DNA of 35,941 bases from an uncultured Chlorobiaceae bacterium (GTDB lineage Bacteria > Bacteroidota > Chlorobiia > Chlorobiales > Chlorobiaceae), in NCBI GenBank assembly GCA_903887845.1, contig CAISRC010000112.1:1-35941 (forward strand). The letters are read 5' to 3'. A program made the translations under genes and the position numbers. Each line of letters begins with the position of its first letter. The first letter of the stretch is position 1. Below the pieces are notes generated by a model. That model was not told the DNA's origin. It saw only the letters and a list, made by a program, of their open reading frames with translations, and did no database searches. Positions 1 to 35,895 of this stretch are shown piece after piece.

Positions 1-223
1 ACTGCATTGAAACGACCAACGTGCAAACAGCCATGGGCACCCACCGTTGGTCTACCGAATCAGTACAGAGAGACAGGTTGTTCCTGGAATATCTGGGAGT
101 GCCCAGCAAATAGTGTACGCTTTATCCTACTTTCAGGATACTATGCCGAGCCTGAGCGCGGCGTTCTCAGGCAGGGTTCAATAAAAAAGCCGGCAACCCA
201 TTACAGGTTAAACCGGCTTTTTT
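1..223 (+). ncRNA. candidate structured RNA, 5' end outside window, class unknown
   Basis: The first 223 bases contain a chain of short hairpins: CCAACGTGC (16-24) can pair with GCAC (37-40) and CGTTGG (45-50); CAGG/CCTG (74-77/83-86); CTGGG/CCCAG (93-97/102-106); TATCCT/AGGATA (123-128/135-140); and GCCTGAG/CTCAGGC (150-156/166-172). An intrinsic terminator follows at 183-223. No convincing protein reading runs through it. Hairpins ending in a terminator on the plus strand suggest an independent small RNA or the 3' end of a longer one. I do not see the hallmarks of tmRNA, RNase P RNA or SRP RNA. A lineage-specific Chlorobi RNA or a 6S-like RNA is possible but unproven. Confidence 0.35.
183..223. 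terminator. bidirectional intrinsic terminator
   Basis: A perfect stem pairs AAAAAAGCCGG (183-193) with CCGGCTTTTTT (213-223) around a 19-base loop. It is T-rich on both strands. It lies 27 bp beyond the stop of the minus-strand Cyc2-like gene and at the end of the plus-strand structured segment, so it could serve both. Confidence 0.8.
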
Positions 224-249
224 ATTATCGAAACGAGGGAATTTTCACA

Positions 250-1512
250 TCAGAATGCACTGAAGAGCACAAGCGATGTCTTCTGGTCTCCGACTTCTGG
301 TGTTGGTACATCTGCGCCATAAGAATAGAAGCTGTGGTTCAGTTGCAGAAGAACATTTTTGGCAATATTATAGGTTGCTGCAAGAGTAACGGCATTTTCG
401 CCATCACTGCCTCCAGTTCCATTATTTGCTTTTCTGTAAGCAAGTCCAAGACCAAGCTTTGACGGGACAACTCCCAAATCGGCGGCGATGGTAAAGGCGG
501 TTCTGTTGGCAACGGTGCTTTCGTTAAAGTCGTTTGGAGTAGCTCCCTCCGAAGCATTCGATTTCGCGGCACTGCCATAAACGACATAAACACCAAGAGG
601 ATAGTCTCCGACTTTTCCCTGCGCCTGGCCATCAACTGCCCATACATCAGCCTTGTGGGCACTCGGGTTCTCCGGGTTGTCTGGAATGTCGATACTTGAG
701 GTTCCTTTCCAGAGCTGAAATCCGGCAGCAAGCTCAAAGTTTCCTACTTTTGCAGGAGTAACAACGCCTCTCACATAGCTCATGAACTTGTGTGGTGTTG
801 CGGTGCCAAGGTCGGCAGTGATGTATGGCGTATAGCTTAAATATCCATACTTGTGATGGAAAACCAGGGCGACTCCCGTTGTGCCGTTATTCGTTTCATT
901 CGCGTCCTGAACAAGATATTGTTGTGCGGAAGTCTCTGCTCCATTTTCAAACGGCCTGGAAAACTCAACGGCACCTGTGTTCAAGAGTTCGTAGCCGTAT
1001 GCTGGGCCTTGCGTATCGGTAAAAAACGGAATGGCGCTGAGGATAAAGTCATTCTGGGGGAAAACAAAGGGCATCTTGAAGCCTGCCAGGAGAGCGGAAG
1101 ATCTGTCGAGACTGATATCAGCCTGATATCCGATGTTTTTTGCTACCCTGCCGGCAAGAAAAAGGCTGGCTTCATCAGGCATATTAAACTCACCCCCGTT
1201 TGTTCCATCTGTGGTCGGGCCATTGGTTTTCACATACCTGAGCTTGGTGACCACTGCCGCATTAAGTGTTACTGGAAGAGAGAGCGAGTTATCTTCAATA
1301 TTCTCCTGTTTGCCTGTTTGCGTATATCCGTTTGCCTTGAACGATCGTCCGTATGCATTGAGTAACGGATATCTCTGGAAATGGCAGGCTGCGCATGACT
1401 GTCCCGTCTGCCTGGAAAATGCAGGTGTTGCAGATGCCTGCGGCACCGAACATAAAAAAGGAGCAAACGCTCCGATAGAAATCAAAAAAGCACGCATTTT
1501 GTTTGCTGGCAT
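250..1512 (-). CDS. Cyc2-like outer-membrane monoheme cytochrome-porin fusion
   Basis: A 420-residue exported protein with a signal peptide (about 1-28, ending ASA). Directly after it comes a heme-c module with one CAACH site (residues 40-44). The flanking pattern, FSRQTGQSCAACH followed by YPLLNAYGRSFKANGYT, closely matches the N-terminus of Cyc2, the fused cytochrome-porin that oxidises Fe(II) at the outer membrane of iron oxidisers. The remaining ~350 residues alternate polar and hydrophobic residues like beta-strands and end in Phe, as outer-membrane barrels do. The length suits Cyc2 (roughly 400-480 residues). A c5-type cytochrome gene lies upstream on the same strand and could be the periplasmic electron acceptor. 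The start could also be Met6; neither has a good ribosome site. Iron as substrate is inferred; sulfur or electrode/partner electron uptake is also possible. Confidence 0.75.
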   Translation of the reverse strand: MPANKMRAFLISIGAFAPFLCSVPQASATPAFSRQTGQSCAACHFQRYPLLNAYGRSFKANGYTQTGKQENIEDNSLSLPVTLNAAVVTKLRYVKTNGPTTDGTNGGEFNMPDEASLFLAGRVAKNIGYQADISLDRSSALLAGFKMPFVFPQNDFILSAIPFFTDTQGPAYGYELLNTGAVEFSRPFENGAETSAQQYLVQDANETNNGTTGVALVFHHKYGYLSYTPYITADLGTATPHKFMSYVRGVVTPAKVGNFELAAGFQLWKGTSSIDIPDNPENPSAHKADVWAVDGQAQGKVGDYPLGVYVVYGSAAKSNASEGATPNDFNESTVANRTAFTIAADLGVVPSKLGLGLAYRKANNGTGGSDGENAVTLAATYNIAKNVLLQLNHSFYSYGADVPTPEVGDQKTSLVLFSAF

Positions 1513-1868
1513 AATAATAGTCCGGTTTTATTGTTGAGAAAACATCGGTTTAAATACTTCAGCCCTTCAAAATATTTTCAAATTCATTTTGAATCGATTA
1601 AAAACTACTATTTTGTTTCTTAAAGAATCATTAATTAATGACTTAATTACACTTAAAAAGCATGATTATTCGGGTATTTAATTTTAACAAGGGTGATTGT
1701 CTGGAAAATAATGTTTTAACTTACAGCACTACTATGATATGCTTCTGACAAGTTTGTCACAGTAGAAAAGAATTCTTGTCTGGTAACTATCGAGGATTAT
1801 GAAATCCTCGTACAGAGATCTTAAGCCTGCTGTTGAGACCTTCTGATATTGTGTAACAGTAAACAGGA
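1513..1868. promoter_or_regulatory. AT-rich intergenic region upstream of the Cyc2-like gene
   Basis: 356 bp without a credible gene. It is very AT-rich and holds an 8-bp inverted repeat, TTCAAAAT (1566-1573) and ATTTTGAA (1586-1593), and a 12-bp palindrome CATTAATTAATG (1629-1640). It also has a hairpin-forming dyad CGAGGATT/AATCCTCG (1791-1798/1803-1810). The promoter of the Cyc2-like gene should lie here unless the gene is read through from the upstream cytochrome gene. I could not fix -35/-10 boxes. Confidence 0.4.
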
Positions 1869-2231
1869 TTAATGCGTGAGGCACTGATCAACCATATAGG
1901 CCACTGCGTTGGCGCTTTCTCCCACCGTTAGGGTTGCAAGCCCGCCTTTTGAAGGCATATTATTGAAGCCCTGAATAGTATGTTGCACAAGAACCTCCAT
2001 CCCTTTGGCAATTCTGGGTTTCCATGCAGTAATATCGCAAAATACCGGTGCCTCCATAACCCCGCTGTTATGGCAGTCTGCGCATACCCGTTCGTAAATC
2101 TGCTTTCCCTGAACCAGGTTATACTTTGCTCGAAGCTCTGAACTGGCAAGTTCTGGCGCAGCATTTACAAGTTGCGGGGTTGAACAAAAAAAGGCGACAA
2201 CCATAGCATATACCTTAACGGAAGGTTGCAT
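1869..2231 (-). CDS. c5-type monoheme cytochrome c
   Basis: A 120-residue exported class I cytochrome c. A hydrophobic signal segment (about 5-24) is followed by a mature domain with the heme site CADCH (residues 50-54) and a likely axial Met92 in the stretch FNNMPSKGG. The ending ESANAVAYMVDQ is the usual last helix of the cytochrome c5 family. Two extra cysteines (65 and 117) could form a disulfide, as in other c5-type proteins. It probably shuttles single electrons in the periplasm. The Cyc2-like porin-cytochrome gene lies 356 bp downstream on the same strand, so it is a natural candidate for the partner that takes electrons from that outer-membrane protein. That pairing is inference from position. 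No Shine-Dalgarno is visible before the ATG. Confidence 0.85.
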   Translation of the reverse strand: MQPSVKVYAMVVAFFCSTPQLVNAAPELASSELRAKYNLVQGKQIYERVCADCHNSGVMEAPVFCDITAWKPRIAKGMEVLVQHTIQGFNNMPSKGGLATLTVGESANAVAYMVDQCLTH

Positions 2232-2616: not shown

Positions 2617-4224
2617 ATGTCCGATGTTACTTTGCCTTGCTATTTTGAATCTGATGTTTCGCTTGCTGCCAGAACGTATTACGGAATTGGCGGTACCGCC
2701 CGTTTTCTTGCTTTTCCGACTTCTCTTTCAGAGTTCTCCAATCTTCTGATCTGGAATCGTACACACCGTTTTCCACTGGCGCTTATGGGGAGTGGGAGTA
2801 ATATTCTCTTTTCTGATAATGAGTTTTCCGGTATTGTAATCTCTTTGAATGGGATGCAGCGTCTTTTCTGGCTTTCAGATGATGAACTTTTCTGCGAGGC
2901 GGGTGTGGACAATACCCTGATTGCTGAAGAGCTTTTTTCTGCCAGCAAGGGAGGGGGAGAGTGGCTTTATCTTCTGCCGGGTCAGATCGGGGCTACGGTA
3001 AGAATGAATGCGCGATGTTTCGGGGGGGAGGTTTCGGAAATTACGGCTGGTATTCTGACGCTTTCGGTTGATGGCCGGTTGCGATGGAAAAGGCCCGACG
3101 AAGTTTTTCATGGCTACAAGCGCACGTCATTGATGGATAATCCGGAAATTGTGGTTGCTGTTGTCTTGCGTTTTCCCGAAAGTCGCCCTGTCGAAAAGAT
3201 CAGGAGTGCAATGCTTGGTTATGAAGAGGAACGTTCCAAAAAGCACCATTTCGATTTTCCAAGTTGCGGTTCAGCCTTCAAGAACAACTATGCTGCAGGC
3301 AGGTCGAGCGGCATGATTTTTGAGGAACTTGGCTTCAAGGGGCAGACGGAAGGTGGCGCCATGGTCAGTGAGCATCATGCCAATTTTATCTATAACACAG
3401 GAGGGGCCACGGCGGAGAATGTGCTCAGGCTTGCTGCACGTATGAGGGCAGCGGCTTTTGAGCAGGCCTGTGCTGAACTTGATCTTGAAGTTCAGTGCGT
3501 CGGCTTGTTTGATGCTGAACTTCTTGCTTCATGTGGTGTGGGGTTTGAAGCTGATCATCGGGACTCTTCACAGGGATGGGTCGGACTGTTGTGGTCGCCC
3601 AGGCAAAAGGAACATACTCTTCAGGAGCCTCTGTTTCCCCGTCTTCTCATGCAGGGACCACTGACAGGTTATTTTGGTCTTGACAGGGAGTTTCCTGAGG
3701 ATGTTGCTGTGGAGGTTGAGCAGTTGTGTTCGTTGGATGCTGCTGCTGCTGCTCCTGAAACACCTTTTCTTCGCTGGATAACCCGCAGCAATGATCCTCT
3801 GCTGTTTTCGTTGAAAGCACCTGCTCCAGCAGGGTTTATCGACGGATTATGGCAGTATGGTGTTTCTGAACTCTTTATTGCCGGAACTCCGGGTGGAGGC
3901 TATCTTGAGTTTGAAATGACTCCTGAGGGTCATTGGGTAGCGCTGCGTTTTGATGCTCCAAGAAAGAGGGCAAAAGGTTTTGAGGTGCTTTCCGCTGAAC
4001 CATGGAACAGGAACGTACGTTTCGTTCACGATAAAGGGAGTTTTGGGATGGAGTTCTGCTGGCATCTGTTAAAGCCATTTATAAGCGAAGGGCAGGTTAT
4101 TGCCTTGCAGTGCGCGGCCTCTTCCGGCAGGGGAGAGCTCGGCTTGTTTCCCTGGTGGCAGACGCCCTCTTCACCGGCCGATTTTCATCAGCCTGATCAG
4201 TTTTTCCGGATTTCTTTGATATGA
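2617..4224 (+). CDS. murB: MurB (UDP-N-acetylenolpyruvoylglucosamine reductase) with C-terminal CBM9-like extension
   Basis: A 535-residue protein. Residues 1-~298 are a complete type II MurB, which makes UDP-MurNAc from UDP-GlcNAc-enolpyruvate using FAD and NADPH. Visible motifs are YYGIGG (21-26), the flavin loop GSGSN (58-62), YKRTS (168-172), PSCGSAFKN (215-223, with the proton-donor Ser at 219) and VSEHHANF (250-257, with Glu252). MurB normally ends near here. Residues ~300-535 form an extra domain with features of carbohydrate-binding family 9-like modules: a central YLEFEMTPEG and an ending LGLFPWWQ...DFHQPDQFF. That domain call is by eye. The ATG has a good ribosome site (AGAGGAA). 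The stop overlaps the next start as ATGA, so translation is probably coupled to the ATPase. Confidence 0.9.
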   Translation: MSDVTLPCYFESDVSLAARTYYGIGGTARFLAFPTSLSEFSNLLIWNRTHRFPLALMGSGSNILFSDNEFSGIVISLNGMQRLFWLSDDELFCEAGVDNTLIAEELFSASKGGGEWLYLLPGQIGATVRMNARCFGGEVSEITAGILTLSVDGRLRWKRPDEVFHGYKRTSLMDNPEIVVAVVLRFPESRPVEKIRSAMLGYEEERSKKHHFDFPSCGSAFKNNYAAGRSSGMIFEELGFKGQTEGGAMVSEHHANFIYNTGGATAENVLRLAARMRAAAFEQACAELDLEVQCVGLFDAELLASCGVGFEADHRDSSQGWVGLLWSPRQKEHTLQEPLFPRLLMQGPLTGYFGLDREFPEDVAVEVEQLCSLDAAAAAPETPFLRWITRSNDPLLFSLKAPAPAGFIDGLWQYGVSELFIAGTPGGGYLEFEMTPEGHWVALRFDAPRKRAKGFEVLSAEPWNRNVRFVHDKGSFGMEFCWHLLKPFISEGQVIALQCAASSGRGELGLFPWWQTPSSPADFHQPDQFFRISLI

Positions 4225-35199: not shown

Positions 35200-35895
35200 T
35201 CAGAACGATGCCATAAAGACAAGGTGTGAAGCTTCAGTGTTCGGATTGTAGATATAAGAGGCGGTATAGCGATCTTTTGAAACCGATATGCCGGTGTTGA
35301 CAAGAGCAAAATTATCGTTTTTCCTGCCGCGCTCGTTGTCGCTGTAGTAATCTGCATCTCCAAAACCTACAACACCTTTTGCCGTGTAGCCATCCTTATT
35401 GTAGAACTTGTAACCGGCTTCACAGTATTTGGCATTTTTGTAACCGATGGCCGTATCATTGCCAGCTACGTTGACAGCAGCAAGCAGGCTGAGATTATCC
35501 TTCGCATAACCGACGCTGAGCTCAACCACGTTCGGCCCTTCACCGCAGAAATCAAACGATCTGTTGTTGTCGCCAACAGGAACATAATAATCCGTTGCAG
35601 TCAGACTGAATGGCCCGGCGGGAACAGTAACGTAAAGGTCAACCTCTTTGTACTTGTCGGCTCCGTTGGCTTCGTTAACGGCATAGGAACCCCATGCACC
35701 AACAATAATACCGCTACCCTCAAAGGTATAGGAAAGAGCTGGCTGAATAGCCGGTGAATCACCCAAATCGATACCTCTCCATACGTAACTGCTGACGACA
35801 TCCGCGCCAACTTTAAATCCTTCTGCCTGGGCGGTACCGCTCAATCCCGCAAAAAGAGCTATTGCAAGGCTTAAAAGTTTTGCTGTTTTTTTCAT
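35200..35895 (-). CDS. TorF-family (Gcw_chp) putative outer-membrane porin
   Basis: A 231-residue exported beta-barrel protein. The signal peptide (1-24) ends in AQA. The mature start, KVGADVVSSYVWRGIDLGDS, has the S-x-Y-x-W/F-RG pattern seen at the N-terminus of TorF/Gcw_chp proteins. Alternating strands follow, and the protein ends in Phe as outer-membrane proteins do. Two cysteines (in FDFCGEG and KYCEAG) may pair. It probably forms a small outer-membrane channel; the solute is unknown. Its promoter should lie in the last 46 bases of the window and beyond. Confidence 0.8.
   Translation of the reverse strand: MKKTAKLLSLAIALFAGLSGTAQAEGFKVGADVVSSYVWRGIDLGDSPAIQPALSYTFEGSGIIVGAWGSYAVNEANGADKYKEVDLYVTVPAGPFSLTATDYYVPVGDNNRSFDFCGEGPNVVELSVGYAKDNLSLLAAVNVAGNDTAIGYKNAKYCEAGYKFYNKDGYTAKGVVGFGDADYYSDNERGRKNDNFALVNTGISVSKDRYTASYIYNPNTEASHLVFMASF

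Follow-up and report, generated by a model that had tools for sequence, protein, structure and literature searches.

A Cyc2-type cytochrome-porin gene and its c5-type neighbour as a candidate electron-uptake pair in an uncultured Chlorobiaceae bacterium

Cyc2 cytochrome-porins are known from neutrophilic iron oxidizers, and a Cluster 1 Cyc2 has been found to oxidize Fe(II) in vitro (PMC8406198). In most Zetaproteobacteria, the proposed periplasmic carrier is the diheme cytochrome Cyc1 (PMC7029218). The occurrence of Cyc2 in Chlorobium is already in print (PMC8125076; PMC8302410; PMC5374249; PMC6498223), with cyc2 reported in 40% of Chlorobium mOTUs (PMC8125076). As of PMC9342728, no culture test of Cyc2 function in Chlorobi existed. 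The Cyc2 described here is thus a further case of a type already known in related lake bacteria. To our knowledge, growth on Fe(II) is without proof in Chlorobium luteolum DSM 273, in which cyc2 is present.

The window analyzed here, a stretch of 35,941 nucleotides, is a single contig (C112) of a 2.65-Mb genome that is 98.8% complete. At its left end, the minus strand carries a c5 gene (1869..2231), a 356-base gap, and cyc2 (250..1512), the latter encoding a monoheme cytochrome fused to a porin. An intrinsic-terminator-like hairpin with a U tract follows just 3' of cyc2 (about 179-227, minus strand; -26.8 kcal/mol, z -3.87 by RNA folding) and is not among the listings of a consensus scan of positions 1-2700. 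The contig begins at window base 1, where the view downstream of cyc2 stops. To the right of c5, a MurB-like gene and then a P-type ATPase, the latter named by its sequence, lie on the plus strand; in the nearest relative (G077) these two genes are found on that side too, and two extra ORFs separate MurB from c5. The MurB-like protein (2617-4224, plus strand) has about 240 additional C-terminal residues with no Pfam match at E 0.001, and at the other end of the window a protein with a Pfam match to Gcw_chp (PF09694) is encoded (35200-35895, minus strand).

In length, leader, and possession of one CxxCH, the window Cyc2 resembles the Cluster 1 Cyc2 proteins of Mariprofundus ferrooxydans PV-1, Gallionellaceae, and Chlorobium ferrooxidans, and the likeness extends to the AXPXF.RQT and PXL motifs, a predicted 16-strand OprO/OprP-like barrel, and a clade shared with Gallionellaceae Cyc2. 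It differs from Cluster 1 Cyc2 of iron oxidizers in that its host is phototrophic and its gene neighbour is a c5 cytochrome. The protein has 420 residues, a probable signal peptide judged by eye (residues 1-28, with the boundary between ASA and TP; 1429..1512, minus strand), and a sole CxxCH, CAACH at residues 40-44 (1381..1395, minus strand), within ...TPAFSRQTGQSCAACHFQRYPLLNAYGRSFKANGYT... and flanked by RQTG on one side and PxL...GRxFKxxGY on the other; it ends in ...LFSAF. It therefore combines the traits that define Cluster 1 Cyc2, namely secretion, as far as the signal peptide read by eye indicates, a single N-terminal CxxCH, and a length of at least 365 residues. The published consensus places AXPXFAR[Q/K][T/Y] before the heme site and PXL after it (PMC8406198); the window protein reads ATPAFSRQT, which fits save for one A to S substitution, and PLL stands four residues past the CxxCH. 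Residues R34, Q35, C40, C43, H44, P49, L51, G55, F58, K59, G62, and Y63 are invariant in 10 aligned sequences. The initial annotation had read in this ORF one CAACH after a leader, flanks of the form RQTG...GRxFKxxGYT, and a terminal Phe, all of which are borne out.

The fold of the protein was predicted with AlphaFold2 from an alignment of 10 rows. The model reached a pLDDT of 57.8 and a pTM of 0.64, with values below 50 across the heme domain at residues 10-55; it is therefore a rough one in which this domain is not resolved. Even at this low confidence, 16 long strands can be counted in it by DSSP, within a predicted beta-barrel of residues 85-419 (256..1260, minus strand). The best Foldseek match in the PDB is OprP, and a second structure comparison gave OprB (Z 23.0), OprO (22.3), and OprP (22.0) over 308-311 residues; OprO and OprP are also the porins named for the Cyc2 of Mariprofundus PV-1 (PMC8406198). 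The protein is accordingly predicted to carry a 16-strand porin barrel like that of OprO/OprP.

Such a barrel might belong to an ordinary porin, or the protein might be a secreted cytochrome, in either case with an incidental CxxCH and no part in extracellular electron transfer. The matches to Porin_4 (21 bits, cut-off 27) and YadA_anchor (21.5 bits, cut-off 22.7), both below the Pfam thresholds, and the finding of no relative in the PDB by sequence (phmmer) could be taken that way; a comparison with NCBIfam gave no match either. However, the heme site and its flanks, together with GFKMPFVF at residues 144-151, are among the best-conserved parts of the protein in Chlorobia and Gallionella alike, and the cytochrome gene next door is conserved as well. 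The incidental-motif explanation was rejected on the conservation of the heme region and is considered very improbable.

Near full-length Cyc2 orthologs were detected in 22 of the 98 genomes of the order, the window's own included, and all of them belong to the window's genus. They score 405-945 bits (E 1.2e-121 or lower), and the next matches, short and N-terminal, lie far below them at <38 bits. The named records with the closest orthologs are Chlorobium or Chlorobiaceae, and two named Gallionellaceae records match at 42 and 40% identity; in the family to which the first one, a Gallionella genome, belongs, 42 of 60 sampled genomes match Cyc2. For phylogenetic analysis, porin-cytochromes were gathered by requiring a single CxxCH within the first 90 residues and F, W, or Y as the last residue; this rule excluded at least one Gallionellaceae locus (L055) and left 15 Gallionellaceae rows beside the 42 sampled genomes that matched. 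The resulting tree (69 rows, 446 columns) comprises these 15 rows, 32 paralogs of the order, and the 22 Chlorobia Cyc2. The last are united in a single clade (100/100), whose closest sister is one Gallionellaceae row (93/95), and a further branch at 100/100 splits Chlorobia Cyc2 plus the 15 Gallionellaceae rows from the 32 paralogs. This branch, with about 4.2 changes per column, is the longest in the tree. The paralogs differ from Cyc2 in carrying ARKY...CxxCH without PxL and in their gene context. The tree agrees with the published placement of Chlorobi Cyc2 next to Gallionella and Sideroxydans (PMC9342728), and transfer is likewise found in PMC12442345.

Placement among unrelated secreted cytochromes is ruled out by the 69-row tree. 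The initial annotation had proposed a Cyc2-like porin-cytochrome, named a predicted 16-strand barrel as a check, and would have counted placement among unrelated secreted cytochromes against the proposal. The assignment to Cyc2 is upheld by the grouping with Gallionellaceae Cyc2 at 100/100 and by the published motifs, with their single A to S change; separation from other porin-cytochromes was recovered in a tree whose rows exclude the validated Cyc2 of PV-1 and A. ferrooxidans; and the strand number agrees with the 16 strands of the low-confidence model and its matches to OprB, OprO, and OprP at Z 22-23. As far as sequence can place it, the window protein belongs with the cytochrome-porins of the Cyc2 type found in neutrophilic iron oxidizers.

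The c5 gene encodes a 120-aa protein with a leader and one heme site, CADCH (2070-2084, minus strand). It matches Cytochrome_CBB3 (47 bits, cut-off 27) and Cytochrom_C (25.1 bits, cut-off 21.3) in Pfam, and among solved structures it comes closest to cytochromes c-555 from green sulfur bacteria (4j20, E 6.7e-19) and c-556 (8hn3, E 7e-19), with cytochrome c5 (1cc5) at E 6.4e-08. By Pfam and PDB comparison, it is a small monoheme class I cytochrome akin to c5/c-555. The presence of such a gene upstream of cyc2 on the same strand, pointed out in the initial annotation, was confirmed and proved to be kept in 21 of the 22 cyc2 genomes, the c5/c-555-type gene lying directly upstream in each. The spacing ranges from a slight overlap to 381 bases by ORF starts, against 356 bases in the window. 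In the exception, G051 (L077), cyc2 has no c5 alongside and a 399-aa ORF takes its place.

Could the c5 be a general c-555 paralog that stands beside cyc2 by chance and is no partner of Cyc2? Genes of the c5/c-555 type match in 87 of the 98 genomes, usually several per genome, the window pair is separated by 356 bases, and the pairing is missing in G051. Since such genes are usually several per genome, our own rough estimate of a chance adjacency is about 0.001 per genome, against which stands a co-oriented adjacency in 21/22. Near full-length orthologs in 22/98 genomes and the upstream c5-type gene in 21/22 place the conservation of cyc2 and its pairing far beyond chance. A tree of c5 proteins (43 rows, 87 columns; row L093 excluded) also argues against coincidence, as the 21 c5s linked to cyc2 divide into three groups corresponding to three clades of Cyc2. 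The window c5 belongs to a group of 19 rows (99/99), comprising 12 cyc2-linked c5s, five beside another porin-cytochrome class (labelled PCc5; SWARKY), and two beside no porin-cytochrome, and it stands apart from three more c5-like genes that its genome carries; another two c5s linked to PCc5 are placed outside the group. The adjacency of c5-like genes to a second porin-cytochrome class likewise speaks against a chance neighbour, which is regarded as improbable. Because the upstream gene is present in 21/22 genomes, the c5 is very likely the periplasmic partner of Cyc2.

Among the PCc5 loci annotated (L069, L070, L071, L075, L076, and L083), a c5-like gene lies alongside in 6/6, a count biased by the picking of most loci for their c5 hit, and TlpA and DUF3570 come after PCc5 in 5/6, with L083 as the exception. 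Among the matches listed in the literature, no description of a c5 neighbour of cyc2 was found; the likeliest place for one is the 2020 ISME J paper of Tsuji et al., reportedly the source for L227-S-6D, which may already report the c5 neighbour.

Taken as a Chlorobium electron-uptake pair, the two genes would carry electrons from Fe(II) through Cyc2 and c5 into photosynthetic electron flow, an optional route alongside the oxidation of sulfur; we put the probability of this reading at roughly 80%. Cyc2 would form a 16-strand porin of the outer membrane and bear its one c-type heme on a small N-terminal domain, placed at or within the mouth of the barrel on the periplasmic side. On entering the pore, Fe(II), or perhaps a different small reduced donor, would pass a single electron to the heme, and Fe(III) would exit. 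The adjoining c5/c-555-type cytochrome may then accept the electron in the periplasm and ferry it to the c-type cytochromes that would supply the type I reaction centre; there, light would lift it to ferredoxin for CO2 fixation. A path from Fe(II), or reduced humics, through Cyc2, c5, and c-type carriers to the reaction centre is likely, since the nearest solved relatives of c5 are c-555 and c-556. Cytochrome c-555 feeds the reaction centre of green sulfur bacteria. The conserved c5 partner would offer a concrete, testable step within the little-known periplasmic stretch of this route.

The genome of the window carries dsrA over its cut-off, and as it encodes DsrA, iron would most likely be an optional donor beside sulfur oxidation. 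A precedent for such coexistence is Chlorobium strain N1, in which a Cyc2 homolog occurs together with the sulfur pathways common to Chlorobi (PMC6498223). The absence of sulfur oxidation from cyc2 genomes was considered as a rule and rejected: within the genus, dsrA is over the cut-off in 11/22 genomes with cyc2, the window's among them, vs. 32/43 without (Fisher p 0.059), and in the 49 genomes at least 90% complete the counts are 11/20 vs. 25/29 (p 0.022), p values in both cases being uncorrected for relatedness. With dsrA in half of the cyc2 genomes, including the window's, iron need not be the natural donor.

The same barrel and c5 could indeed serve mainly a donor other than dissolved Fe(II), such as reduced humics, minerals, electrodes, or partner cells. 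Besides the DsrA encoded in the same genome, this suggestion draws on Trout Bog Chlorobium, which reportedly transcribe one Cyc2 homolog far above the genes for other donors, and on the tying of daytime water oxidation to these Chlorobium in a setting whose chief electroactive pool is dissolved organic matter (PMC12285243). However, the activity found for a Cluster 1 Cyc2 under test is Fe(II) oxidation, and it has been argued that the single heme can be reached by Fe(II) only through the pore (PMC8406198); small soluble donors therefore fit better than solids or cells. A donor mainly other than Fe(II) is rated fairly unlikely, and Fe(II) is preferred as the probable donor. The bacterium would then be one more DsrA-encoding Chlorobium that could draw electrons from iron, and iron use by Chlorobium bears on lake iron cycling and on models of early photosynthesis.

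Outside the window, the same genome encodes a second porin-cytochrome (G000:C95:13795-15114), a homolog of Cyc2 by profile match (99% probability over 351 columns) that resembles it in having an N-terminal heme domain, a porin part, and about 420 residues, yet stands far from it in the 69-row tree. It heads a Rieske/cytochrome b/multiheme-c locus that is split over two contigs (G000:C95:10841-19311, L068; G000:C33:1-8797, L088), with the same stretch at both contig ends and a divergent ResB/CcsA alongside. The order of genes is porin-cytochrome, Rieske, ferredoxin-like, cytochrome b6-like, subunit IV, large multiheme c, monoheme c, cupredoxin, TlpA, DUF4266, DUF3570, another ORF, ApbE, and DsbD, the ferredoxin-like and b6-like names coming from reading the sequence. 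Clusters of DsbD, thioredoxin-like, DUF4266, DUF3570, and ApbE genes have been described, and flavinylation has been demonstrated for the DUF3570 protein of C. luteolum (PMC8238504); the thioredoxin-like Pfam of those clusters is other than that of TlpA in the locus here, and Cyc2 is unnamed in the main text of that paper. Among the matches listed, judged by titles and abstract starts, no paper on the Rieske/multiheme locus was found. The three Cyc2 homologs reported in the Trout Bog Chlorobium suggest that the paralogs may already be counted there (PMC12285243).

The multiheme protein, with eight CxxCH in the intact copy of Chlorobium sp. L227-S-6D (G035), is present in 35 of the 98 genomes of the order, plus a marginal 36th match (G027), and 25 of the 35 are without Cyc2. 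A porin-cytochrome stands at the head of the locus in 29 of these 35 annotated loci, and in five (G004, G057, G058, G071, and G075) the contig stops before the head position. The notion that a porin-cytochrome always heads the locus was rejected, as G038 has an intact locus without one and its porin-cytochromes lie on other contigs. L227-S-6D has a Cyc2 ortholog at 87% identity with c5 upstream, as in the window, but there the c5-cyc2 pair lies inside the Rieske/cytochrome b/multiheme-c locus, between cupredoxin and TlpA (L078:6192-18735), whereas the window pair lies beside the MurB-like gene and the P-type ATPase. Two broader associations also failed. Cyc2 does not go with the multiheme locus in the genus (10/22 genomes with cyc2 vs. 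15/43 without, p 0.43), and cyc2 does not always precede TlpA-DUF3570, both of which follow in three of 19 loci (G035, G028, and G042) and DUF3570 alone in one (G053), the window, G024, and G064 reaching a contig edge too soon among the 22 loci.

Strong Cyc2-like paralogs (E 1e-77 or lower) occur in 58/98 genomes, of which 42 are without Cyc2. We tentatively suggest, at somewhat less than even odds, that Chlorobiaceae possess a modular porin-cytochrome family in which Cyc2 is one exchangeable head, wired either to c5 or to a Rieske/cytochrome b/multiheme-c complex and often placed before a TlpA-DUF4266-DUF3570-ApbE-DsbD flavinylation module. The genome of the window has both the Cyc2-c5 pair and such a locus, and the two are joined in one near relative (G035). 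If this is true, the modular heads would provide green sulfur bacteria with a route for electrons between the quinone pool and the cell surface. Most of the genomes that own it here (25 of the 35 with the multiheme protein) are without Cyc2, and the Rieske/multiheme locus would be a candidate surface electron route for Chlorobia that lack Cyc2. Relatives of the multiheme protein were also observed outside the order, in other families of the phylum, in 11 genomes (e.g., G272:C48) among 394 searched, a set that includes members of the order; these relatives are mostly partial and share 31-45% identity (E <1e-30).
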